NCBI GenBank assembly: GCA_014382695.1
Contig: JACNJF010000139.1
Location: forward strand, 1-34,588
Reading direction: 5' to 3'
DNA: 34,588 bases
DNA from: Gammaproteobacteria bacterium
GTDB taxonomy: Bacteria > Pseudomonadota > Gammaproteobacteria > GCA-001735895
The notes beneath the pieces are model-generated. The model saw only the letters and a list, made by a program, of their open reading frames with translations, did not search any database and was not told where the DNA came from. The translations under genes and the position numbers were made by a program. Shown piece by piece: positions 23,444 through 34,588 of the stretch. Numbering within the stretch: the first letter of the stretch is position 1; every line of letters begins with the position of its first letter.

Positions 23444-24880
23444 CTAATTCATAATCTGCGCAAGTTCCTGCATCAGTGTCTGCGCTGAAATACCATGTGC
23501 AAATTTGGTAACAAAGCGACCATCCGGAGCCATCAGGTAAAGACTTGCACTATGATCCATCGCATACTGATCAGGCTCGGACCCCTTATCATAAATCTTT
23601 TCATAGCGAACCTTAAACTGATCCGCTACACGCCGGATCATCTGCTCAGAACCGGTTAATCCCATCAATCGTGGATCAAAATAATTCACATATTGATTCA
23701 GCCTTTTTATCGTATCGCGCTCGGGATCGACCGAAATGAAATAGGGTTGAATCTCCAGCGCGCGCGCTCCCAGTAAGCCGAGCGCCTGAGTGAGTAACGC
23801 CAGCTCTGTCGGACAGATATCCGGACACGAGGTATAACCAAAAAATATGATCGAGTAATGCCCCTGCATATCCTGCTCGGTAAAATTCTGACCCAGATGA
23901 TTGGTTAAAATATAGCGCCCACCAAGTCCGTCGATAATGGGCACATCGTCGCTTAGGGCGGTTGAACGGGCCTGTGCCGCCACATCCATATCCGCATTCA
24001 GGCAGCGCTTGATGACATCCGTGTTGTACGCCATTAACTGCAGGTATAGATCAGGCCCTGCCTGCAGATGTCGGCCTAGCGTATCCAGCTCTCCTACATT
24101 GATGGACTGCCCCTGCCTTAATAACTCAAGATGTTCGGCGGGCATGCTCTTATCGATAAACAGACACACTGCCTCCTTATTCTGAATGCGACTTCTAACC
24201 TTCAGCAGATTAATCGCATCGGTGCTATCCCACGGAGAATCGGTGACACGATCCAGCGTCTTTAACGCATAGGCCTGTTCAAAATAATTCAGATTATCGA
24301 AATACATCACGCCCAGGCCGGCTTTCAGGCCTCTATAACCATACTCGTATTCCTTATCGATACGCTGCAGTGGAATCAGCAACTCCATCCGATTGCGCAC
24401 ATAGATATGCGCACGCGCTGGATCGAGCTGAATAAATAATTCGGTTAACTGATCGAGCAGAATGATGACGTTGCGGTCATCCATCCAGAAAAATGGATCT
24501 CTGGCATCCGGATTCTGGCGCGATGGCAGAATCTTCATATCGGTGCTGGACAGCAGTTCAACCACTTTCACCGACGCGGGTAATTTTTCGATCACCGGCT
24601 GCAGCGTTTTTTCCAGTTCCGACCCGACCCAGAGTAGTAACTGTGCACTGTCCAGTTGCTGCTGATGTGCAGCCGTCAACCTGAAATTATAAGGCGTTTG
24701 TTGTTGATCGATTAATAACACGGGCTGCCCGATGTCTTTCATCAAACCCGCCACAATCGAGTGCACCGGTTTAATACTGACAATCACCCTGAAGTCATCT
24801 GCAGCCTGTAGATGAACACTGCCGAGCAGTGTCAGTAACGCGAGCAGGCTTCTAGCTATGAAGTTGAAGGAACGGATCAT
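23444..24880 (-). CDS. Substrate-binding-protein-like (ZnuA family) / SCO1 fusion
   Basis: 478 residues with a signal peptide (cleavage at about 26), so exported. Residues about 28-295 match the fold pattern of zinc/manganese ABC transporter binding proteins (VIVSIKPVHSIVAGL, LLLWVGSELEKTL, a late YLQLMAYNTDVI). The three usual histidine sites are changed: the PHD position reads PYN (63-65), DPHxW reads DPFFW (128-132), and the HDA..YF position reads FDNLNYF (194-200). Residues about 305-478 are an SCO1/SenC thioredoxin-like domain with an intact copper site: C352 and C356 (CPDIC) and H443 (DHSASLYL). SCO proteins deliver copper to or reduce CuA-type centres, present in NosZ and cytochrome oxidase. 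It overlaps the preceding gene by 4 bases. SCO identity is sure; the binding-protein half has probably lost canonical metal binding. Confidence 0.9.
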   Translation of the reverse strand: MIRSFNFIARSLLALLTLLGSVHLQAADDFRVIVSIKPVHSIVAGLMKDIGQPVLLIDQQQTPYNFRLTAAHQQQLDSAQLLLWVGSELEKTLQPVIEKLPASVKVVELLSSTDMKILPSRQNPDARDPFFWMDDRNVIILLDQLTELFIQLDPARAHIYVRNRMELLIPLQRIDKEYEYGYRGLKAGLGVMYFDNLNYFEQAYALKTLDRVTDSPWDSTDAINLLKVRSRIQNKEAVCLFIDKSMPAEHLELLRQGQSINVGELDTLGRHLQAGPDLYLQLMAYNTDVIKRCLNADMDVAAQARSTALSDDVPIIDGLGGRYILTNHLGQNFTEQDMQGHYSIIFFGYTSCPDICPTELALLTQALGLLGARALEIQPYFISVDPERDTIKRLNQYVNYFDPRLMGLTGSEQMIRRVADQFKVRYEKIYDKGSEPDQYAMDHSASLYLMAPDGRFVTKFAHGISAQTLMQELAQIMN

Positions 24881-25212
24881 GGAAAGGCTTTTTCGATATT
24901 GCCAATCGCAGCCTCCAGCTGCTGCTCAAACATTTCCAGTGAAGGGCAACTGCTGTCTGAAGTCATAAATTCCATAAACGACTCATTCGTGCTGCGCTCA
25001 AAGCGGTCGCCCAGTTCACGTTGCTTGGGTAGATGTAACACCAGCACCATCTTGATTTTCTGCATTTTTTCGACGTAACGGCATTGCAGCGCGACGCCAT
25101 TCAGGCGACCCATCTCTGCAATCGATTCCAGCTCGGTCGGGGTGGCACTGATGACAGGCGATGACCCCAGCAGGGTAAACATAAGGGTTAAAGCAGAGAG
25201 GGATTTTCGCAT
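24877..25212 (-). CDS. Small exported protein of unknown function
   Basis: 111 residues with a signal peptide (MRKSL, hydrophobic core, cleavage after about residue 23). The mature part of about 88 residues has two cysteines (C44, C89) that could pair in the periplasm, and a helical, charged body (LHLPKQRELGDRFERSTNESF). No family recognised. It sits between the pentapeptide-repeat gene and the SBP-SCO1 fusion and overlaps the latter by 4 bases (ATGA), so translation of the two is probably coupled and the products may work together in the periplasm. Confidence 0.8.
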   Translation of the reverse strand: MRKSLSALTLMFTLLGSSPVISATPTELESIAEMGRLNGVALQCRYVEKMQKIKMVLVLHLPKQRELGDRFERSTNESFMEFMTSDSSCPSLEMFEQQLEAAIGNIEKAFP

Positions 25213-25237: not shown

Positions 25238-25999
25238 TTAATGAATGGATCCGGTTTGCTCTATCATGAGTAACAGATGGGCAGGGATATCCTGTGCATT
25301 GGAAAAATTAGTATCCTTTAAAACCGCGTTGGTAAATCTTGCATGACTCAACTTTGCTTCTATGAACTGGGCGTAATCCAGACTTGCACCATTCAACAGG
25401 GCATTGCTCATATTAGCACGGGTAAAATCAGCCTGCTCCAGTGCGCCACCGGTCAATACCGCATTATAGAAATTGGTATCACGTAACTGACTCGATATCA
25501 GTACCGCGCGTTGCATAAAGCAGCCCACAAATTTACTCCGGTTCAGGTTACTTTCTTCGAGTGAAATATCTTTCATGTAGGCCTCGGTGAAATCGGCTTC
25601 CTGAGCGATTACTTCATTCATATTCGAGCCGAACATATTGGCACCAGTAAACTGGCTATTACTCAATATCGAGCCATTAAACGTAGTATGAAACAAATCT
25701 GCAGCGGTTAAATCGGCATGGGTGATCACGCAGTCCGTCATAAACGCCCATTTCATATCGGCCTTACGAAAACTGGCATCGGCCAGATTACAGCCCTGCA
25801 TTTTCGCGTTGGTAAAATCAACACCATCCATTAATGCTCCCTGCAAATTAATGGACCCAAGATTCCTGCCATTAAACGAACAATGGCGTAGATCGGTTCT
25901 GGCGACTGGTGTTGCGCAATCACCTTTCGGAAGCTCATCGGCACACACCTGTTGATATAGCAAAACGGTTACGCAAAGTGCTGAGACTAGCCGGTACAA
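25238..25999 (-). CDS. Exported pentapeptide-repeat protein
   Basis: 253 residues. A signal peptide (cleavage after about A20, QQVCA-DE) is followed by about 40 tandem pentapeptides of the A(D/N)(L/F/M)xx type from about residue 35 to 235 (for example ADLTAADLF, ANMFGSNM, ANMSNALLNGASL). These form a right-handed square beta helix, so the protein should be a rod in the periplasm. Some repeats carry cysteines. Cytoplasmic members such as MfpA/Qnr protect gyrase, but an exported copy must do something else. First gene of the set that ends with the SBP-SCO1 fusion, 25 bases before the small exported protein, and 51 bases from the FNR-type box. Confidence 0.88.
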   Translation of the reverse strand: MYRLVSALCVTVLLYQQVCADELPKGDCATPVARTDLRHCSFNGRNLGSINLQGALMDGVDFTNAKMQGCNLADASFRKADMKWAFMTDCVITHADLTAADLFHTTFNGSILSNSQFTGANMFGSNMNEVIAQEADFTEAYMKDISLEESNLNRSKFVGCFMQRAVLISSQLRDTNFYNAVLTGGALEQADFTRANMSNALLNGASLDYAQFIEAKLSHARFTNAVLKDTNFSNAQDIPAHLLLMIEQTGSIH

Positions 26000-26800: not shown

Positions 26801-27283
26801 TCAGCCCGCATGACTGACGGTGATAAACCGATACGGCACCTTTATCCGTTTATTGCCTGACCTCAGCTCCACCAGTGCTTCCCATTCCATCGCGTTTTGA
26901 CTGCAGAAAGACAGTGTCGCCTTAGCGCTAAATTCACCTTTCACCATATTCTTCAGTTCTATCTGATTGAGCGGCATTTTCATATCCACCCCGTTCAGCT
27001 CGACGCTGACGCCATCCACCCTGAAACCTTCGACGAATACCTTTAGCTGTAACGGTTTGGCCAGTGGTATTTCTCGTGGCTCAATCGAAAAACTGACGCT
27101 GGCACCATCCTTCAATGCGGTCACACAGGGGCCAGCACGTAAATCACATTGCTGATCATAGGGAATAACGATGAGTTGCACCTGCTGACTCTGTAATTTT
27201 TGTTGATAAGCGGTCCAGCCGACAAGCAGGATAAATAGAACAACAATGACCCCGCCCTGAAATTTACTGATACCTTTAAACAT
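26801..27283 (-). CDS. Membrane-anchored periplasmic protein at the end of the nos operon
   Basis: 160 residues. One N-terminal transmembrane helix (about 11-27, GVIVVLFILLVGW), then a beta-rich periplasmic domain. It has cysteines C46 and C53 (CDLRAGPC) and C127 (SFCSQ), and a VDMKMPLN motif at 99-106 whose two methionines are reminiscent of copper-binding sites. No family recognised with confidence; FixH-like proteins share the anchor-plus-beta layout, but the match is weak. It starts 20 bases after nosY and is likely co-transcribed, so a role in NosZ maturation or copper handling is a reasonable inference. Confidence 0.8.
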   Translation of the reverse strand: MFKGISKFQGGVIVVLFILLVGWTAYQQKLQSQQVQLIVIPYDQQCDLRAGPCVTALKDGASVSFSIEPREIPLAKPLQLKVFVEGFRVDGVSVELNGVDMKMPLNQIELKNMVKGEFSAKATLSFCSQNAMEWEALVELRSGNKRIKVPYRFITVSHAG

Positions 27284-27303
27284 GGACGTCTCGCAAGCCG
27301 GTT

Positions 27304-28131
27304 CTAGGGAAGATCACTACGCCGGAAAACCAGATAACCTATAGCGGCACACAGGCTTCCAAATAGCACCGGATAGATAACCGCATAGGCGATATAACCA
27401 GCCTGTGAAAAGTTATCCAGAATGACGTATGCCGTGGGACCGAGTAAAACCAGCTGCGGATCGAACAACATCATGGTCGCGGTTCTGAACACCTGCATCG
27501 GATTGGCCAGCGCTATCGCGACCGCTGTTTCGGGCGGCAGGTTTTCCTGAATCATGATACCGAGCAATATTAAATCGAGAAAAAGCAGTAACACCAGCCA
27601 GGTCAGAAACGCCGCACCCTGCGCCACATCCGATGAGCGTGCCAGTGTGGAGATCAGCATGCCGATGCCGAGAAAGCACCAGGCCAGCGCCATCAGCAGC
27701 GCGCTATAAAAAATGAAAAGGTTCCAGGGTATCGCCGATCCTTTGATCACACCCCATACCAGTGCAGCCAGCATGGCCATAAACACCGGCAAAAACACGA
27801 CGAAGAAGCGCCCCAGAAAACGCCCCCAGAACCAGGCTGCCAGCGAGACTGGTAATGACAGCATATATTCAAAAATTCCCGCTTCTCGATCCCCTGCCAC
27901 CGAGCGCACCGTGGTAATCAATACAAAGATCGGTAGTATCGCCATCGACAGCTGAATATAGGTGACCAGCAGGCGCGACAGGCCGGTAAAGCCCATCACT
28001 CTGGATTCGGACAGGCCGAATACAAACAGAATCACCACGATGCCACCGAATACCAGCGAATACACCATAAACCAGCGTGCACGCAGGGACTCGATAATAT
28101 CGTTGTAGGCAGTTAGCCAGAGATGCTTCAT
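27304..28131 (-). CDS. nosY: NosY, ABC transporter permease for NosZ maturation
   Basis: 275 residues with six predicted membrane segments and the typical opening of the family (a short cytoplasmic helix with DIIESLRARWF, then the first membrane span). GDREAGIFEYMLSLPVS matches the conserved coupling segment of ABC-2 permeases. NosY partners NosF and the periplasmic NosD; together they are needed to assemble the CuZ centre of nitrous oxide reductase, probably by exporting a sulfur species or passing copper via NosL. Its ATG overlaps the nosL stop by 4 bases. Confidence 0.92.
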   Translation of the reverse strand: MKHLWLTAYNDIIESLRARWFMVYSLVFGGIVVILFVFGLSESRVMGFTGLSRLLVTYIQLSMAILPIFVLITTVRSVAGDREAGIFEYMLSLPVSLAAWFWGRFLGRFFVVFLPVFMAMLAALVWGVIKGSAIPWNLFIFYSALLMALAWCFLGIGMLISTLARSSDVAQGAAFLTWLVLLLFLDLILLGIMIQENLPPETAVAIALANPMQVFRTATMMLFDPQLVLLGPTAYVILDNFSQAGYIAYAVIYPVLFGSLCAAIGYLVFRRSDLP

Positions 28132-28631
28132 CTTGAATTCTCGCGCTCAAGCGCCTGTTGTTGCAGTCGCAGCTGCAGTTGCTGGCCATGCAGATTGTAC
28201 TTCGCTTCCACTTCGGCGATACGCAACTTCGCCTGCTCAAAATTCAGACCGCCTTCAGCCGGCTCTGACTGTGCGCCCAGACCGTATTCCATCGGTGTTG
28301 TGTTCCTGCTCACATAGGTCGCGCTTGTCGCATCAATCCATTCTTTGGTTCGATGATCAGCAACCCATAGCTCCGATTTAATTTCATCTTTCCAAGGTTG
28401 TTCCTGTAGCCATAGCGCGGCACAGCCGATATCATCAAACTTGGCCACTTTAGAACGCTTACCCTCAGGAAAATAGCGTACCTCTGCGGCGAAGTGCGGA
28501 TCACTCAATACCATGCGACAGCGCTCACAGTTGTCTCTGTCCCATTTAACCTCGGCCGGCCCTGTATCAGGCTCAGACGAGCAACCCGCCAGCAGCAACA
28601 GTAGCGTGAGCACAGTCAATTTACGCAACAT
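28128..28631 (-). CDS. nosL: NosL, copper chaperone lipoprotein
   Basis: 167 residues from ATG 28631, chosen because it gives a clean lipoprotein signal peptide (MLRKL, leucine run, lipobox LAG-C17); an upstream in-frame ATG at 28688 would bury it. The mature part has CERCRM (C35, C38, M40), fitting the copper-binding site of NosL, then FDDIGCAALWL and a conserved DATSATYV segment. The last 45 residues are a charged Gln/Arg/Leu-rich helix, longer than in most NosL. NosL binds Cu(I) in the periplasm and delivers it for NosZ assembly. The start overlaps the end of nosF by about 11 bases. Confidence 0.92.
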   Translation of the reverse strand: MLRKLTVLTLLLLLAGCSSEPDTGPAEVKWDRDNCERCRMVLSDPHFAAEVRYFPEGKRSKVAKFDDIGCAALWLQEQPWKDEIKSELWVADHRTKEWIDATSATYVSRNTTPMEYGLGAQSEPAEGGLNFEQAKLRIAEVEAKYNLHGQQLQLRLQQQALERENSR

Positions 28632-29499
28632 GTTCTTTCCTCGACTGCACCACTTCATCCATCGCGATACCTGATAGCAACGCGGCATAGCGCGATAACA
28701 TCCCCAGAAAGCGCAACCGATCCGGCCCGGCTATAATACCGGTCCATATGGTATTGACAGATGACGAACTGAAGCCCCATTCGCCGAGTGCTTTGGCAAA
28801 TGCAGGCTCAAACTGAACCATGCTGATCTGACAGGCCAGCTGGCTCGACATATCCACAAGATCGGCGACCACATCATCCAGCACAATCTCGCCCTGATCC
28901 ATTTCCACCACCCGGTTTACCAGCGATGCAACTTCATCCAGACGATGACTCGAAATCAACATGGCCGAACTCTGCTGTTTTTCTGCCAGCAATTTAAACA
29001 GTGTGTGCCGGGCTTCAGGGTCGAGATTGGCTGCAGGCTCATCCATCACCAGTAATTCACTATCGCGCCCCAGTGCAATCGCAATCAACAGCTTCTGTTT
29101 CTGTCCACCGGAGAGTTTGACGAAGGGTTGATGTCGGTACTGCACGGCGTCAAACCCTAGCAACCCGGCCACATGCTGCATGCGTTCCGCCTCTGCTCCG
29201 CACAGGCTGGCGGCAAAGTGAATCAGTTGACCGACCGGCATCCGTAGCGGCGGTGGTAACTGTGGGACAAAACCGACTTTGGCTAATACCTGCTGACGAA
29301 ACTCACGTGGATTCAGCTCGTCTACCGTCACTAGCCCGCTGCAGTTATATTCGCCCAGTAGACAGCGGATCAGCGTCGTTTTACCGGCACCATTGGAGCC
29401 TACCAGCGCAACGCGCTGGCCGCGTGTGATCGCAAGGTTAATACCTTTGAGTACCTGATTGCGCCGGAAGCGTTTACTGACATTACTAAACTGAATCAT
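28621..29499 (-). CDS. nosF: NosF, ABC transporter ATPase
   Basis: 292 residues. Walker A is GSNGAGKT (34-41), the Q-loop region is FVPQLPP (77-83), the signature is LSGGQKQK (129-136), Walker B is ELLVMDEP (148-155), and the H-loop follows at SSHRLDE. The C-terminal 80 residues form an accessory region. It powers the NosDFY transporter used for CuZ assembly in nitrous oxide reductase. It starts 19 bases after the nosH stop and overlaps nosL at its end. Confidence 0.93.
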   Translation of the reverse strand: MIQFSNVSKRFRRNQVLKGINLAITRGQRVALVGSNGAGKTTLIRCLLGEYNCSGLVTVDELNPREFRQQVLAKVGFVPQLPPPLRMPVGQLIHFAASLCGAEAERMQHVAGLLGFDAVQYRHQPFVKLSGGQKQKLLIAIALGRDSELLVMDEPAANLDPEARHTLFKLLAEKQQSSAMLISSHRLDEVASLVNRVVEMDQGEIVLDDVVADLVDMSSQLACQISMVQFEPAFAKALGEWGFSSSSVNTIWTGIIAGPDRLRFLGMLSRYAALLSGIAMDEVVQSRKEHVA

Positions 29500-29518
29500 G
29501 ACTTCTATTTCATCTGAA

Positions 29519-30493
29519 CTAGAGGAACTTATCCAGGCCTTTAAACCGGTAGTTCAATGAATCGGTTGGACAGACATCCACACACATACCACAGCGGGTA
29601 CAGTCCGCACTGACATCCTGATCGATATCATGTGCCCTGCCACGAATGGTTAGATCCAGTACATGCGGCACCAGACAGACCTTGCGGCAGTCGCCTTCAT
29701 GATGACAGGCTTCGGCATTATAAACCACCCGTAACGGCGACAGCGTACCGACTGCAGCATAGGTCACTCCGATCGGACACACGTAGCGACACCACGCGCG
29801 ACGCGAATAAAACACTTCAAACAATAGCAGCACACCGACCCAGATGAGTGCCACACCGGGGCCATAGATGATGGCGCGGCTGAGAATACCGGTGGGAGAA
29901 ATGGTTTCAAACACGGTATAACCTGTCACAATCGCCAGCAAGGCAAAGATGACATAAAAAACACTGCGGGTTTTACGATGAAAGGTATGATTCCTGATGA
30001 CTTTTTTATCCACCAGCCACAGATGCAGATACTCGGCCCATTCCGATAACAGGTGATAGGGACAGGCCCAGGAACAGAAGGTTCTGCCACCCAGCAGCAG
30101 CCACATCACAAAAACGGTAGTGGTACCGATAACCAGATTTAACACCACATGTTTATACGCCAGCATCACCTGCAGGGCCGAGTTTAAATCGGCGAAATGG
30201 AAGCCGACAAAACGCGATGCGGTCATCGCCCCTTCCAGTAGCTGTACATCAAATTTATAGGAAACCAGGAAAAGCACGTTAACCAGTATCAGGGTTATCC
30301 AGCGGCGTCGTTGCCACTTTCTAAAAAAGGTACCATGGTGCTCAAGATGAGCGGCTTCCAGGTCGGCCTTACTCAGCGCCCCTCGCTTCGCCTGATAGAT
30401 AGCGAGTAACTCTTCAGACTGCTGACCTTTTTGCGGACGAGTCGGAGGATTACCAAAAACCTGCGAAAAGGATTCTTTTATATAGTTCAACAC
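29519..30493 (-). CDS. nosH: NosH, NapH-like membrane polyferredoxin
   Basis: 324 residues. About four or five membrane helices (about 64-82, 112-135, 177-193, 212-228) carry two cytoplasmic-edge cysteine pairs, CSWACP (C140, C144) and CRYVCP (C235, C239), as in NapH/NosR/RdxA-type proteins. The C-terminal region has C263/C269/C273 and a [4Fe-4S] motif CTRCGMCVDVCP (C298, C301, C304, C308). In clade II nos systems NosH with NosG is thought to accept electrons from menaquinol or quinol and move them toward periplasmic cytochromes and NosZ. There are 3 bases between the nosG stop and this start. Confidence 0.9.
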   Translation of the reverse strand: MLNYIKESFSQVFGNPPTRPQKGQQSEELLAIYQAKRGALSKADLEAAHLEHHGTFFRKWQRRRWITLILVNVLFLVSYKFDVQLLEGAMTASRFVGFHFADLNSALQVMLAYKHVVLNLVIGTTTVFVMWLLLGGRTFCSWACPYHLLSEWAEYLHLWLVDKKVIRNHTFHRKTRSVFYVIFALLAIVTGYTVFETISPTGILSRAIIYGPGVALIWVGVLLLFEVFYSRRAWCRYVCPIGVTYAAVGTLSPLRVVYNAEACHHEGDCRKVCLVPHVLDLTIRGRAHDIDQDVSADCTRCGMCVDVCPTDSLNYRFKGLDKFL

Positions 30494-30496
30494 GAT

Positions 30497-31384
30497 CTAT
30501 CCCCAGTTCGTGGTTTTGTCGATATCAACAACGATCGCGGGTGCTGCTTCCACCGGGCAGATCATTTCACACACACCGCAACCCACACAGCCATCCAGTA
30601 CCACCGGCAGCATACGGGTAATGCCATCTGCTGATTCTATTGGCTGCAGCTCTATCGCATGTTTCGGCGGGCACTCATTACCGTGCTGTTCAGCCACTCT
30701 GGCCAGAGTACCTTCTCTTTTTGCTTCTTCGCGCTGCCGGTCTTTCTCCACACACTGGGTGATTCGAATCTCGATCGGACACTGGCGCACACACAGGTCG
30801 CACAGCTCAAGATCATAAGGATGATCCGCCACCGCAATTGGATTCCAGCGGTCGATCTCATCGTAACGTAACAGGCCTTTATAATCCGGCCCTCGCACCT
30901 GCCCTTTGAATCCCCGGCCCTGAACCGCGAGGCAAGTCTTCGGCTGATCGAGTCGGGCAAACCCCATCCGCGTATCGGCCGGATAATTCAGCTCATGGGT
31001 TAAAGCACCGGTCGGACAGGCCAGCACACATTGCAGGCCATCACAGGAAAAATCACAGGCCTGTTCGCGTGCATCGATATACGGAATACCGATACCGACG
31101 CCTTCATCCAGCTCGGCCAGTTTGATCGCGTTTACCGGACATACCTGCACACACTGACCGCACTTGATACAGGCTGCAAAAAACTCCTGCTCCTCAAATA
31201 CCGTTTTAAGCGCACCGGGTGGACGCAGACGTGCAGAGGAACCCTGCACAACCGGAAGTAGTCCTGCCAGCGAAAAAGTAACCACACCAGCCGTTAACAC
31301 AGCAGAGCGAATAAACTCTCTGCGGTTTGTCTCTATTCGGCTTTTGCTCAGCACCCTTTTTACTTTTTTAGTCTCTTCACTCAT
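30497..31384 (-). CDS. nosG: NosG, NapG-like periplasmic ferredoxin (Tat exported)
   Basis: 295 residues. The N-terminus has a twin-arginine type signal (NRREFIRS at 20-27, then AVLTAGVVTFSLAGLLP). Four [4Fe-4S] sites are visible: CIKCGQCVQVCP (C72-C82), CDFSC...CVLACP, CDLCVRQCP with later Cys, and CVGCGVCEMICP. This layout is that of NapG and its nos-cluster relative NosG. It should sit in the periplasm and work with NosH as a quinol-to-cytochrome electron route. Its ATG overlaps the nosD stop by 4 bases, so the two are translationally coupled. Confidence 0.9.
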   Translation of the reverse strand: MSEETKKVKRVLSKSRIETNRREFIRSAVLTAGVVTFSLAGLLPVVQGSSARLRPPGALKTVFEEQEFFAACIKCGQCVQVCPVNAIKLAELDEGVGIGIPYIDAREQACDFSCDGLQCVLACPTGALTHELNYPADTRMGFARLDQPKTCLAVQGRGFKGQVRGPDYKGLLRYDEIDRWNPIAVADHPYDLELCDLCVRQCPIEIRITQCVEKDRQREEAKREGTLARVAEQHGNECPPKHAIELQPIESADGITRMLPVVLDGCVGCGVCEMICPVEAAPAIVVDIDKTTNWG

Positions 31385-32625
31385 TGTTTTGAATCACTAA
31401 TTTCAACCCGAGCCGACATCAATGGGCTATCATCTCTGACCAGCATATCCGGTGTACTGAATGGGGCCAGTCGCTCCAGAAAGTCGAGCACCGCCATCAC
31501 CGGAGTACCCTGAAAAAAACGAGCGGCAGGTACATCCATCCAGATGCGATCGGCATAACCGTAAAGCTCATAAGGCTTGTCACCGATACCGTCATGATCC
31601 AGATCAAAGCCTTCGTAATCATCCCAGTAGTTATCCTTCCATACATTACGGTTTGCGGTTTTTCCACCGGCTACAGAAATCTGTGTCTGATTACCCTTGA
31701 AAGAATTTCTCTCGAATATATTACCGGTCCAGTCGTTTAGAAAGTTAATCGCAACATTGGTAAACGCAATCACGTTATCATGAATCCGGTTGGTCTTTTC
31801 CGGATCATACGGAGAAACGTCGATATACAGACCGGTGGCACAGTATAGAATCTGATTGCTGGAGATCTCAACATCCGAGGTTTCCTTAAACCCTATACCC
31901 ATCCCGGTAGGACCGTTGGCATAGGCGATATAATTGTTATGCACGCGCACACCATCGCTATACATCAGGAAAATGCCGACCGAATTATTTTCATAATGAT
32001 TCGAGTCAACTTCGTTGAAGCGTGAGTACATAAAGTGCAGGGAGTAGCGGCCACCACGCGAATCGTTGCGCGCTATCGTATTATCGGCAGAATACCAGAC
32101 CACCATATCGCGACTATCACGAATGATGTTGTCTTCAATCTTGTTATTAAAACTGTACCAGAGTCGAACCGAATCACCGCGCACGCCCAGATCGACGGGC
32201 TTGGAAGAGATACGATTACGCCGAATGATATTCGAATCGGCCTGCTGTAAGTCGATGCCAAACAGGGTGTTGTCGATCACATTATCCTTGATCACATTGA
32301 ACTTGCCCCTGACCTGAATCGCGGCATCGATATCGTTATGCGAATTGCCACTGTTGGTCAGATGCATATTTCTGATTACCGCGCCATCGGTATCCAGATA
32401 GATCACGGAACCCTTACCACCGGCATCGATGGTTACCTGACCCTGACCATCGATAGTAAGCGGAAAATCCAGCGTGACCGGCCCGGCATAGATACCGGGT
32501 GGGGGAACCAGCGTCGATTTTGGTTCAGCAGCATTGATCAGGTCCTGGAAAGGCGGGTAGTCAGCCGCCATACCAGACAGGGTAAAGCCCAGTAGAAACA
32601 GCGTGCTGGCGAAACCCCTTAGCAT
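31381..32625 (-). CDS. nosD: NosD, periplasmic right-handed beta-helix protein
   Basis: 414 residues with a signal peptide (cleavage at about 20, SGMA-AD). From about residue 60 to 340 it is a series of Asn/Ile-rich beta-helix turns (for example NVIKDNVIDN, NIIRRNRISS, NKIEDNIIRDS), the CASH/NosD repeat pattern, ending in the conserved NYWDDYEGFDLDHDGIGD segment. NosD binds the NosFY transporter on the periplasmic side and is needed for CuZ assembly in NosZ. It starts 4 bases after the upstream nosB-like gene. Confidence 0.94.
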   Translation of the reverse strand: MLRGFASTLFLLGFTLSGMAADYPPFQDLINAAEPKSTLVPPPGIYAGPVTLDFPLTIDGQGQVTIDAGGKGSVIYLDTDGAVIRNMHLTNSGNSHNDIDAAIQVRGKFNVIKDNVIDNTLFGIDLQQADSNIIRRNRISSKPVDLGVRGDSVRLWYSFNNKIEDNIIRDSRDMVVWYSADNTIARNDSRGGRYSLHFMYSRFNEVDSNHYENNSVGIFLMYSDGVRVHNNYIAYANGPTGMGIGFKETSDVEISSNQILYCATGLYIDVSPYDPEKTNRIHDNVIAFTNVAINFLNDWTGNIFERNSFKGNQTQISVAGGKTANRNVWKDNYWDDYEGFDLDHDGIGDKPYELYGYADRIWMDVPAARFFQGTPVMAVLDFLERLAPFSTPDMLVRDDSPLMSARVEISDSKQ

Positions 32626-32629
32626 CGAC

Positions 32630-33832
32630 CTAGTCCGCAGATGAAGAAAACTGCTTACGCCGAATCAGAGCTGCAAATGCGAGTACCACAGACACCACCA
32701 ACATCAGGAAAAAACCTGTATCAGGATAGGAGTGGGTAGCAAACTGCGCCACCTTACCATCACCGAAAACGGTCGGCATGAAGGGTTTCACCGAAAACGC
32801 GCCCATGTCGTTCAGGGTATGTCCATACCACCATAACCAGGCCGAGTAATCGATCAGAAAAAACAGCGGTAACGCCATCGGCACCAGTACCAGCAACCAG
32901 TAGAAAATACCGCCATTTTTGCGCGCACCAAAAATCAGCACCAGCATCGCCGCCAGCAATCCCCAGAATACCACCTGCAACGCCAGCTCCAGGGTTTTAA
33001 CCATCGGTACGATTTCAGCCTGATTATTAAAATAGCGCCCCAGACTTTTAGCATAATGCCAGGACATCACCTGAAAAGAACTACCATCCCAGTCCTGCAT
33101 ATCCGAGCTTTTAGCACGATCAATGTCATAGGTTTGTTTCAACTGCTCAATCAGGCGTGTTTTATCACTATCCCTGCCTGCAGCACGTTCTTTCTTTTTT
33201 TCAATCTCTGAGGGCAGGATAACTTCCACTCCAGAGTCTTCCAGCGACTTTTTAAGTACACCGGTTATTCCGCCAATCACAAACTCCGGTTCTTCATCCG
33301 CCGAGGTCGCGCTTGCATCCTGATCCAGCGAAGTCACCAGCGCTTCCACAAATCCTGCATTCTGCAGCTGGAAACCATCTTCTGAATACATCGCCAGACT
33401 CATCCAGAGCGCAATCGCGCCAAAACCTACTGTCATTATGCTCATGCGAATGTTAGGCCGGGTACACATGAAACCAACCAGCATAACGCCCATGAAGACC
33501 ACCAGAAACTGACCAAAACCTCTTTCCACCGGGCCGCCTGCCGCAATAGGGTACATCCCGACATAGTGATTGATGGTGTCCATTTCATGTACACAGTCGA
33601 GTGCTTCGTCTTCGGTAATTTCGGCTTTATCGAGCTTTTTACAGCCATTGAACACACCATTGATATGAAACTCAATGCGCACACCATCGGGAAAGGATTC
33701 TGCCGGATAGTTGGGGGCGGTCAACGATACCCACCAGATCGACGTGTAAAAAATTGCCCCCAGTAAACCAATAGCGATGACCGAGAGAATACCGACTTTT
33801 AAGGTTTGCTTATTGAAGGATTCTTTACTCAT
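32630..33832 (-). CDS. nosB: NosB-like integral membrane protein
   Basis: 400 residues from ATG 33832; a start at 33886 is open but adds a segment without a ribosome-binding site. Membrane helices lie at about 11-33, 105-123, 130-150, two or three between 285 and 335, and one near the C-terminus (GFFLMLVVSVVLAFAALI). Between helices 1 and 2 is a periplasmic loop with CKKLDKAEI, CVHEMDTINHYVGMYPI and a second His/Met-rich stretch; the later YGHTLND and FATHSYPD segments also carry histidines. Position directly before nosD, with no nosR, matches nosB of clade II nos clusters such as Wolinella succinogenes. NosB is needed in those systems but its job is unknown. Symbol given from context and general resemblance. 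Confidence 0.72.
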   Translation of the reverse strand: MSKESFNKQTLKVGILSVIAIGLLGAIFYTSIWWVSLTAPNYPAESFPDGVRIEFHINGVFNGCKKLDKAEITEDEALDCVHEMDTINHYVGMYPIAAGGPVERGFGQFLVVFMGVMLVGFMCTRPNIRMSIMTVGFGAIALWMSLAMYSEDGFQLQNAGFVEALVTSLDQDASATSADEEPEFVIGGITGVLKKSLEDSGVEVILPSEIEKKKERAAGRDSDKTRLIEQLKQTYDIDRAKSSDMQDWDGSSFQVMSWHYAKSLGRYFNNQAEIVPMVKTLELALQVVFWGLLAAMLVLIFGARKNGGIFYWLLVLVPMALPLFFLIDYSAWLWWYGHTLNDMGAFSVKPFMPTVFGDGKVAQFATHSYPDTGFFLMLVVSVVLAFAALIRRKQFSSSAD

Positions 33833-33897
33833 ATAATGTGATCCGATATTAAAAACTGTTAACCAATGATTCCTGAAGGCAACCATTGTGATGGAAA

Positions 33898-33925
33898 GCT
33901 AACTCCCACTAGTGCGGGAGTTAGC
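33898..33925. other. Strong hairpin between cytochrome c and nosB-like gene
   Basis: A perfect 10-bp stem, GCTAACTCCC / GGGAGTTAGC, with an 8-base loop lies in the 126-base gap. On the minus strand it is followed by TTTCC, a poor T-tract, so it may be a leaky terminator, attenuator or mRNA-stabilising structure that sets different levels of the upstream cytochrome (and presumed nosZ) and the accessory genes. A second short hairpin CCGGA-TAAA-TCCGG lies next to it at 33935-33948. Confidence 0.6.
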
Positions 33926-33958
33926 CGTGCTACACCGGATAAATCCGGTTAAACCCGA

Positions 33959-34588
33959 TTATTTGTAATCCGGGTTTCTATAGTTGACCGATGGCGCCAG
34001 ATCCTTCGGGTCAACCGGACTACGTGATATCCAGTTGATAACCATCTTCATATCCTTATCGGTAAAGCGCTTGATCTGATCGACCATGTCAGGATTGGCG
34101 TTACGACGCTTGCCATCTCTGATCCATTCAAACTGACGCAGCATATAGGCGTAATGCTGACCTTCGATACGTGGATAAAACTTGTCCGGATTACCCTGAC
34201 CATGATCACCATGGCATGTCACACAGTTGTCCGCGTAAAGTTTGGCACCCTGCTCATACTCTGGTGTACCTTTTTCCCATTCACCCTTTCCGTTATCCGG
34301 GTTCATCGGCAGCGATGCGATATAGGCGGTAACATCCGCCATTGCCTGCTCATCACCGATCGACTCCGGTAATGCAAATGGATACATGGTCGGGTTATCA
34401 CGGTTTAATGCACGAATATCGGCCAGCTGCTTGATCAGCACTTCACGCGACTGTCCGGCAAGCTGAGGGAAAGTGCCGTTGGTCATGCCCCAGCCTTCCA
34501 GCAGGTGACAGGCCGAGCACACTTCATACACCTCGATGCCATTCTGCCGATTCGGCGTTAGCGTCATCGCCACATCCTTTTCACCGCC
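33959..34588 (-). CDS. Dihaem cytochrome c, N-terminus cut by the right edge
   Basis: At least 209 codons are visible and the frame stays open to the window edge. A start at GTG 34573 or ATG 34567 would leave no signal peptide, yet haem attachment occurs in the periplasm, so the real start lies beyond the edge. Two c-type haem motifs, CSACH and CVTCH, each head a cytochrome c domain followed by FPQLAGQ or YPRIEGQ and a Tyr/Gln-rich helix, the c4-like plan; MYPF and NPDM supply candidate Met ligands. It leads the nos accessory genes, so it probably follows nosZ and gives electrons to it. It resembles the dihaem protein at 26120 in layout but is clearly divergent. Confidence 0.88.
   Translation of the reverse strand, partial: GGEKDVAMTLTPNRQNGIEVYEVCSACHLLEGWGMTNGTFPQLAGQSREVLIKQLADIRALNRDNPTMYPFALPESIGDEQAMADVTAYIASLPMNPDNGKGEWEKGTPEYEQGAKLYADNCVTCHGDHGQGNPDKFYPRIEGQHYAYMLRQFEWIRDGKRRNANPDMVDQIKRFTDKDMKMVINWISRSPVDPKDLAPSVNYRNPDYK

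Follow-up and report, generated by a model that had tools for sequence, protein, structure and literature searches.

What does a binding protein of the metal-uptake type do when it is fused to a copper chaperone and encoded at the end of an operon for nitrous oxide reduction? The window (the whole stretch of 34,588 nucleotides analysed here) raises this question with a gene that joins a ZnuA-like binding protein (SBP) to a SCO1 protein. Among the known biological sinks of the greenhouse gas N2O, NosZ is the main one, and to our knowledge the copper route to the CuA site of its clade II form is poorly known. The gene belongs to the N2O-reductase gene cluster of uncultured marine bacteria, and the fusion is otherwise found nearly exclusively in bacteria with clade II NosZ. 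On balance, the evidence favours a SCO chaperone dedicated to clade II NosZ, probably to CuA, in which the former SBP would act as a docking or ligand-reading domain.

The fusion is encoded at 23444..24880 (-) as an open reading frame of 478 amino acids with no internal stop. Pfam places a ZnuA domain at residues 32-293 (24002..24787 (-); E 1.3e-30, 107 bits, far above the cut-off), in agreement with alignment and structure match, and a SCO1-SenC domain at residues 320-456 (23513..23923 (-); E 3e-46, 157 bits against a curated cut-off of 22.8), in agreement with alignment to solved SCO proteins and a motif check. In the AlphaFold model of the fusion (mean pLDDT 86.6, pTM 0.61), the SBP half superposes on the ZnuA proteins of E. 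coli and Citrobacter with a Z of about 29 and an rmsd of 2.2-2.3 over 261-262 residues, and structure search also matches the model to SCO1 proteins at 35-38% identity. A helix at residues 2-25 of the model may represent a cleaved signal peptide or a membrane anchor. The same fusion is present as a single frame in 15 other genomes, and therefore it is not a product of chance or of assembly. A ZnuA-family protein fused to SCO1 had been proposed in a preliminary description of this gene, and that reading is confirmed by the two domains in one frame and by recurrence of the architecture.

Metal-binding residues of the ZnuA family are missing from the first half. Alignment to ordinary ZnuA-type proteins places Y64 (TPYNF, 24689-24691 (-)), F130 (DPFFW, 24491-24493 (-)) and F194 (YFDNL, 24299-24301 (-)) at the first, second and third zinc His positions. 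All three ligand His are present in 15/15 ordinary proteins, which were taken from the window genome and 14 related genomes. The loss of the metal His had been noticed beforehand, and the alignment extends it from the window protein to its subfamily, where the first and second His are found in none of the 19 SBPs, the window protein counted. Because the third is still kept in four members (G060, G485, G049 and G503), the alignment suggests stepwise loss of His from a zinc-binding ancestor.

Subfamily SBPs form a single clade against ordinary SBPs (support 100/100), with 28 positions that are conserved among them and mostly different in ordinary SBPs. Sixteen of these positions fall within residues 116-137 and 179-205, two segments that contain two of the old ligand sites; the p of 1e-6 for this clustering is descriptive only, as the segments were picked after the list was seen, and the cleft was judged by alignment positions, not by distances. 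Mean pair identity is 50% for the SBP half and 55% for the SCO half, and among close relatives the SBP half is the more conserved. Since conservation is close to that of the SCO half and the region at the old ligand positions is altered yet conserved, the SBP domain looks repurposed, not decaying. No ZnuB/ZnuC-type permease and ATPase genes were found beside the fusion. Its neighbours are nos genes and genes for a pentapeptide protein, a hemerythrin and aceEF, and the sole adjoining ABC genes are nosF and nosY. Docking of the SBP half on NosFY, in the manner of ZnuA on ZnuB, was set aside, NosY being an ABC-2 type permease and not of the ZnuB type.

A rebuilt cleft could still be a metal site. 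The SBP half might bind metal, perhaps copper, through new ligands other than His (e.g. D134, D195, E201, D266 or Tyr) and hand it over to the SCO half. Asp, Glu and Tyr residues near the old ligand positions show high conservation, an Asp occurs at the D266 position in most members, and fusion to a copper chaperone would suit a chain of metal hand-over. However, F130 and F194 put hydrophobic aromatic residues at two of the old ligand positions, with Tyr at the third, and the usual metal ligands are scarce elsewhere: the subfamily has no conserved Met, its only conserved Cys are C239 and C293, a pair common to ordinary SBPs, and H40, its sole invariant His, is not a ZnuA ligand. Metal hand-over from the SBP half is accordingly considered unlikely.

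The second half has an intact copper site, as had been read from the sequence. Alignment and a motif check locate C352 and C356 of the C-x3-C motif at 23813-23827 (-) and the distal H443 at 23552-23554 (-). CPD[IV]C is kept in 16/16 aligned fusions, and the distal His in 15/15 of those that reach far enough.

Upstream of the fusion and on the same strand lies a clade II-type nos operon (26801..34573 (-)), comprising nosC, nosB, nosD, nosG, nosH, nosF, nosL, nosY and a FixH-like gene. It was identified from open reading frames and Pfam/NCBIfam matches, NosD scoring above the curated cut-off, and its order is kept in relatives. The fusion sits at the operon end behind a small partner gene, sm111, and this pair is separated from the operon by a pentapeptide-repeat gene and a divergently oriented cytochrome c gene. 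The window contig stops before nosZ, and clade II NosZ is encoded on another small contig of the same genome. A position in or at the nos operon is also found in G001, G004, G008, G032, G289, G388 and Candidatus Thioglobus perditus. In G007, a single contig holds fusion and operon at a distance of 58 kb, the fusion lies outside the operon with nosZ about 18 kb off in G258 and G142, and the fusion or SBP gene is away from the operon in G124, G485 and G357, where clade II NosZ is present. Plasmid records gave no match.

Several other genes accompany this locus. The FixH-like gene (26801-27283 (-)), downstream of nosY, encodes a single-helix protein that also occurs within or close to the nos clusters of G001, G004, G007, G124 and G137. 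The pentapeptide-repeat protein (25238-25999 (-)), which is secreted, is encoded beside sm111 and the fusion, and G007 (L069) and G388 (L074) have its homologues next to these two genes as well. A UbiA/MenA-type prenyltransferase and other quinone-biosynthesis-type genes are found beside the fusion in several genomes (L065:3102-4016, L075:11484-14906, L076 and L007:11448-13881), perhaps because clade II NosZ receives its electrons by a menaquinol-linked route.

Distribution was assessed in 369 Gammaproteobacteria genomes, 20 of which carry clade II NosZ as defined by a score above the cut-off of TIGR04246. The SBP subfamily occurs in 8/20 of these genomes compared to 1/349 of the others (Fisher p 1.4e-10, in a test that ignores shared ancestry; the nine positives represent six families). 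Among the eight, the SBP is fused in six and separate in G049 and G357. The lone positive among the 349 is G247, a fragmented assembly in which the start of a fusion is seen at a contig end. Twelve of the 20 clade II NosZ genomes are without the SBP subfamily, and it is therefore not essential for clade II NosZ. Outside Gammaproteobacteria, G485 and G503 carry the subfamily and both have clade II NosZ. Within the window's own family, G060 has the two together, and G028 has the subfamily on a 3.7 kb contig of a fragmented assembly in which no NosZ was found. The link between the SBP subfamily and clade II NosZ is strong, not absolute; the association with nosZ that the preliminary description had raised is seen in operon position as well as across genomes, and is held mainly to genomes with clade II NosZ.

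The partner gene sm111 (24877..25212 (-)) encodes a small secreted helical protein and shares 4 bases (ATGA) with the start of the fusion gene. Its model is compact and helical (pLDDT 88.6), and every one of 11 sequences carries C44, C89 and a G-x-LNG-x-AL-x-C motif. Foldseek against the PDB gave nothing significant for it, and Pfam/NCBIfam nothing convincing. An sm111 homologue stands before the fusion at every locus assembled on that side, and in a search of the 369 genomes all credible matches adjoin an SBP-SCO fusion or a SCO; one match, in G215, was discarded for its nine stops. In G357, sm111 is fused straight to a SCO (L079:9377-10270), with the SBP gene at another place. G750 has nosY, then sm111 and a SCO, with no SBP, inside a full nos operon, and G165 likewise has an sm111-SCO arrangement without the SBP domain. 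The arrangements in G357 and G750 indicate that sm111-SCO is a nos-associated unit, to which the SBP is an addition that is also encoded separately. Translationally coupled to the fusion, sm111 belongs to the same module, and any function given to it here is one that we infer.

A tree of SCO domains bears on the client of the chaperone. Fused SCOs group (support 99/96) with the unfused sm111-linked SCOs of G165, G049, G750 and G357, and the four other SCOs of the window genome fall outside this clade. Three of these four adjoin PCuAC genes and one adjoins a gene for SBP56 (methanethiol oxidase type). At L072:112-4190 (G000:C8), a SCO gene of the window genome stands in a row with a SCO-MauG fusion gene and a gene for SBP56 (methanethiol oxidase type).

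It could be argued that the fusion is a general SCO for cytochrome oxidase or another copper enzyme and merely travels with nos genes. Cytochrome oxidase is the classical SCO client, and some genomes have the fusion outside the nos operon. Nevertheless, the tight restriction of the SBP subfamily to clade II NosZ genomes speaks against an oxidase SCO, as do the supply of other SCOs in the window genome, most of them beside PCuAC, and the distinct clade of the fused one. A general SCO is therefore judged quite improbable.

SCO function needs reduced thiols, and the SBP half might instead serve their redox control, for instance as a docking site for a reductase of the CcdA/DsbD type or a thioredoxin-like one. 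The stand-alone His-poor SBP of G049 directly follows DsbA-like and DsbD_TM (CcdA-like) genes, possibly in one operon (L062:7964-10442), which hints weakly that thiol chemistry is involved, and the TlpA-ScoI complex (4txo) is among the structure matches of the fusion. Dsb-type neighbours are nevertheless confined to that one genome, since the fusion of the window has none and neither has G357, and such a role is regarded as very unlikely. That the SBP half is the decaying passenger of an accidental fusion, as its lost His ligands and the SBP-free sm111-SCO of G165 and G750 might suggest, is hardly credible given its near-SCO conservation, its many subfamily-specific invariant residues and its retention as a separate protein in both G049 and G357.

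The dedicated NosZ chaperone remains the preferred reading. Its NosZ link is well supported by genomics, and the proposal in the preliminary description that the fusion is a copper-delivery factor is well founded in the intact SCO ligands, the position at the nos operon and the co-occurrence with clade II NosZ. In Paracoccus denitrificans, mutants without senC2 or pcuC reduce less N2O at low copper (reviewed in PMC7558416), and SCO/SenC and PCuAC have been assigned to CuA of NosZ and NosL to CuZ (reviewed in PMC7558416; NosL in PMC6530538). Another P. denitrificans protein with a part in N2O reduction but no assigned function, Pden_4445 (PMC7558416), was weighed as a possible relative of sm111 or of the SBP. 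A plain SCO gene upstream of a nosC is reported in Bacillus azotoformans (PMC3475470). By analogy with the Paracoccus SCO/PCuAC proteins, the SCO half would hold copper by its two Cys and distal His and pass it, most likely, to the CuA of clade II NosZ, whose motif is intact in fusion-carrying genomes according to a motif check. The SBP half would not bind metal in the ZnuA manner; its old ligand region, rebuilt with conserved aromatic and charged residues, probably serves to read a ligand or to attach the chaperone to NosZ, sm111 or another Nos factor, in line with the docking or sensing domain of the preliminary description, although this role is inferred. Against a dedicated role, other SCO/PCuAC proteins of the same genomes could serve NosZ.

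A more tentative possibility is that copper insertion into clade II NosZ is the work of a three-part module of sm111, the former ZnuA domain and the SCO, in place of the PCuAC/SenC pair, and that the old zinc cleft has been remodelled to hold a protein segment or a copper chelate. The nos-linked SCO, the repurposed binding protein and the familyless partner offer concrete genes for the copper supply of clade II NosZ. They also suggest how a metal-uptake binding protein can be turned to other use with its fold and a conserved cleft region retained.

The fusion is probably an undescribed copper-delivery factor for clade II NosZ: a search of open-access full text, a scope that leaves out most subscription journals, found no description of a ZnuA-SCO1 fusion. 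Clade II nos clusters of the Wolinella type (NosZ-B-D-G-C-H-F-Y-L) have the same core genes as the window operon, but sm111 and the SBP-SCO fusion at its end have no mention in the open-access literature searched. ZnuA/cluster A-I proteins (PDB 2osv, 7rcj) share with the SBP half the whole fold and the C-terminal disulfide cysteines, while the SBP half differs in lacking all three zinc His and adjacent znuB/znuC and in being fused to SCO. PCuAC-SCO gene pairs, like the fusion locus, set a SCO beside a second periplasmic factor, although here sm111 and/or the SBP domain takes that place, and neither of them matches the PCuAC family. The fusion also resembles the SCO1/SenC chaperones (Bradyrhizobium ScoI, PDB 4wbj; Paracoccus SenC2), which are periplasmic, have the SCO fold with CxxxC and a distal His, and are implicated in CuA assembly, including that of NosZ (PMC7558416), as proposed for the fusion. 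The fusion differs from them in the ZnuA-fold domain ahead in the same chain and in its linkage to nos and sm111 rather than to PCuAC. It is a genuine and conserved protein with a link to clade II nos genes, and it is a variant of the SCO-type copper chaperones, not a new kind of system.
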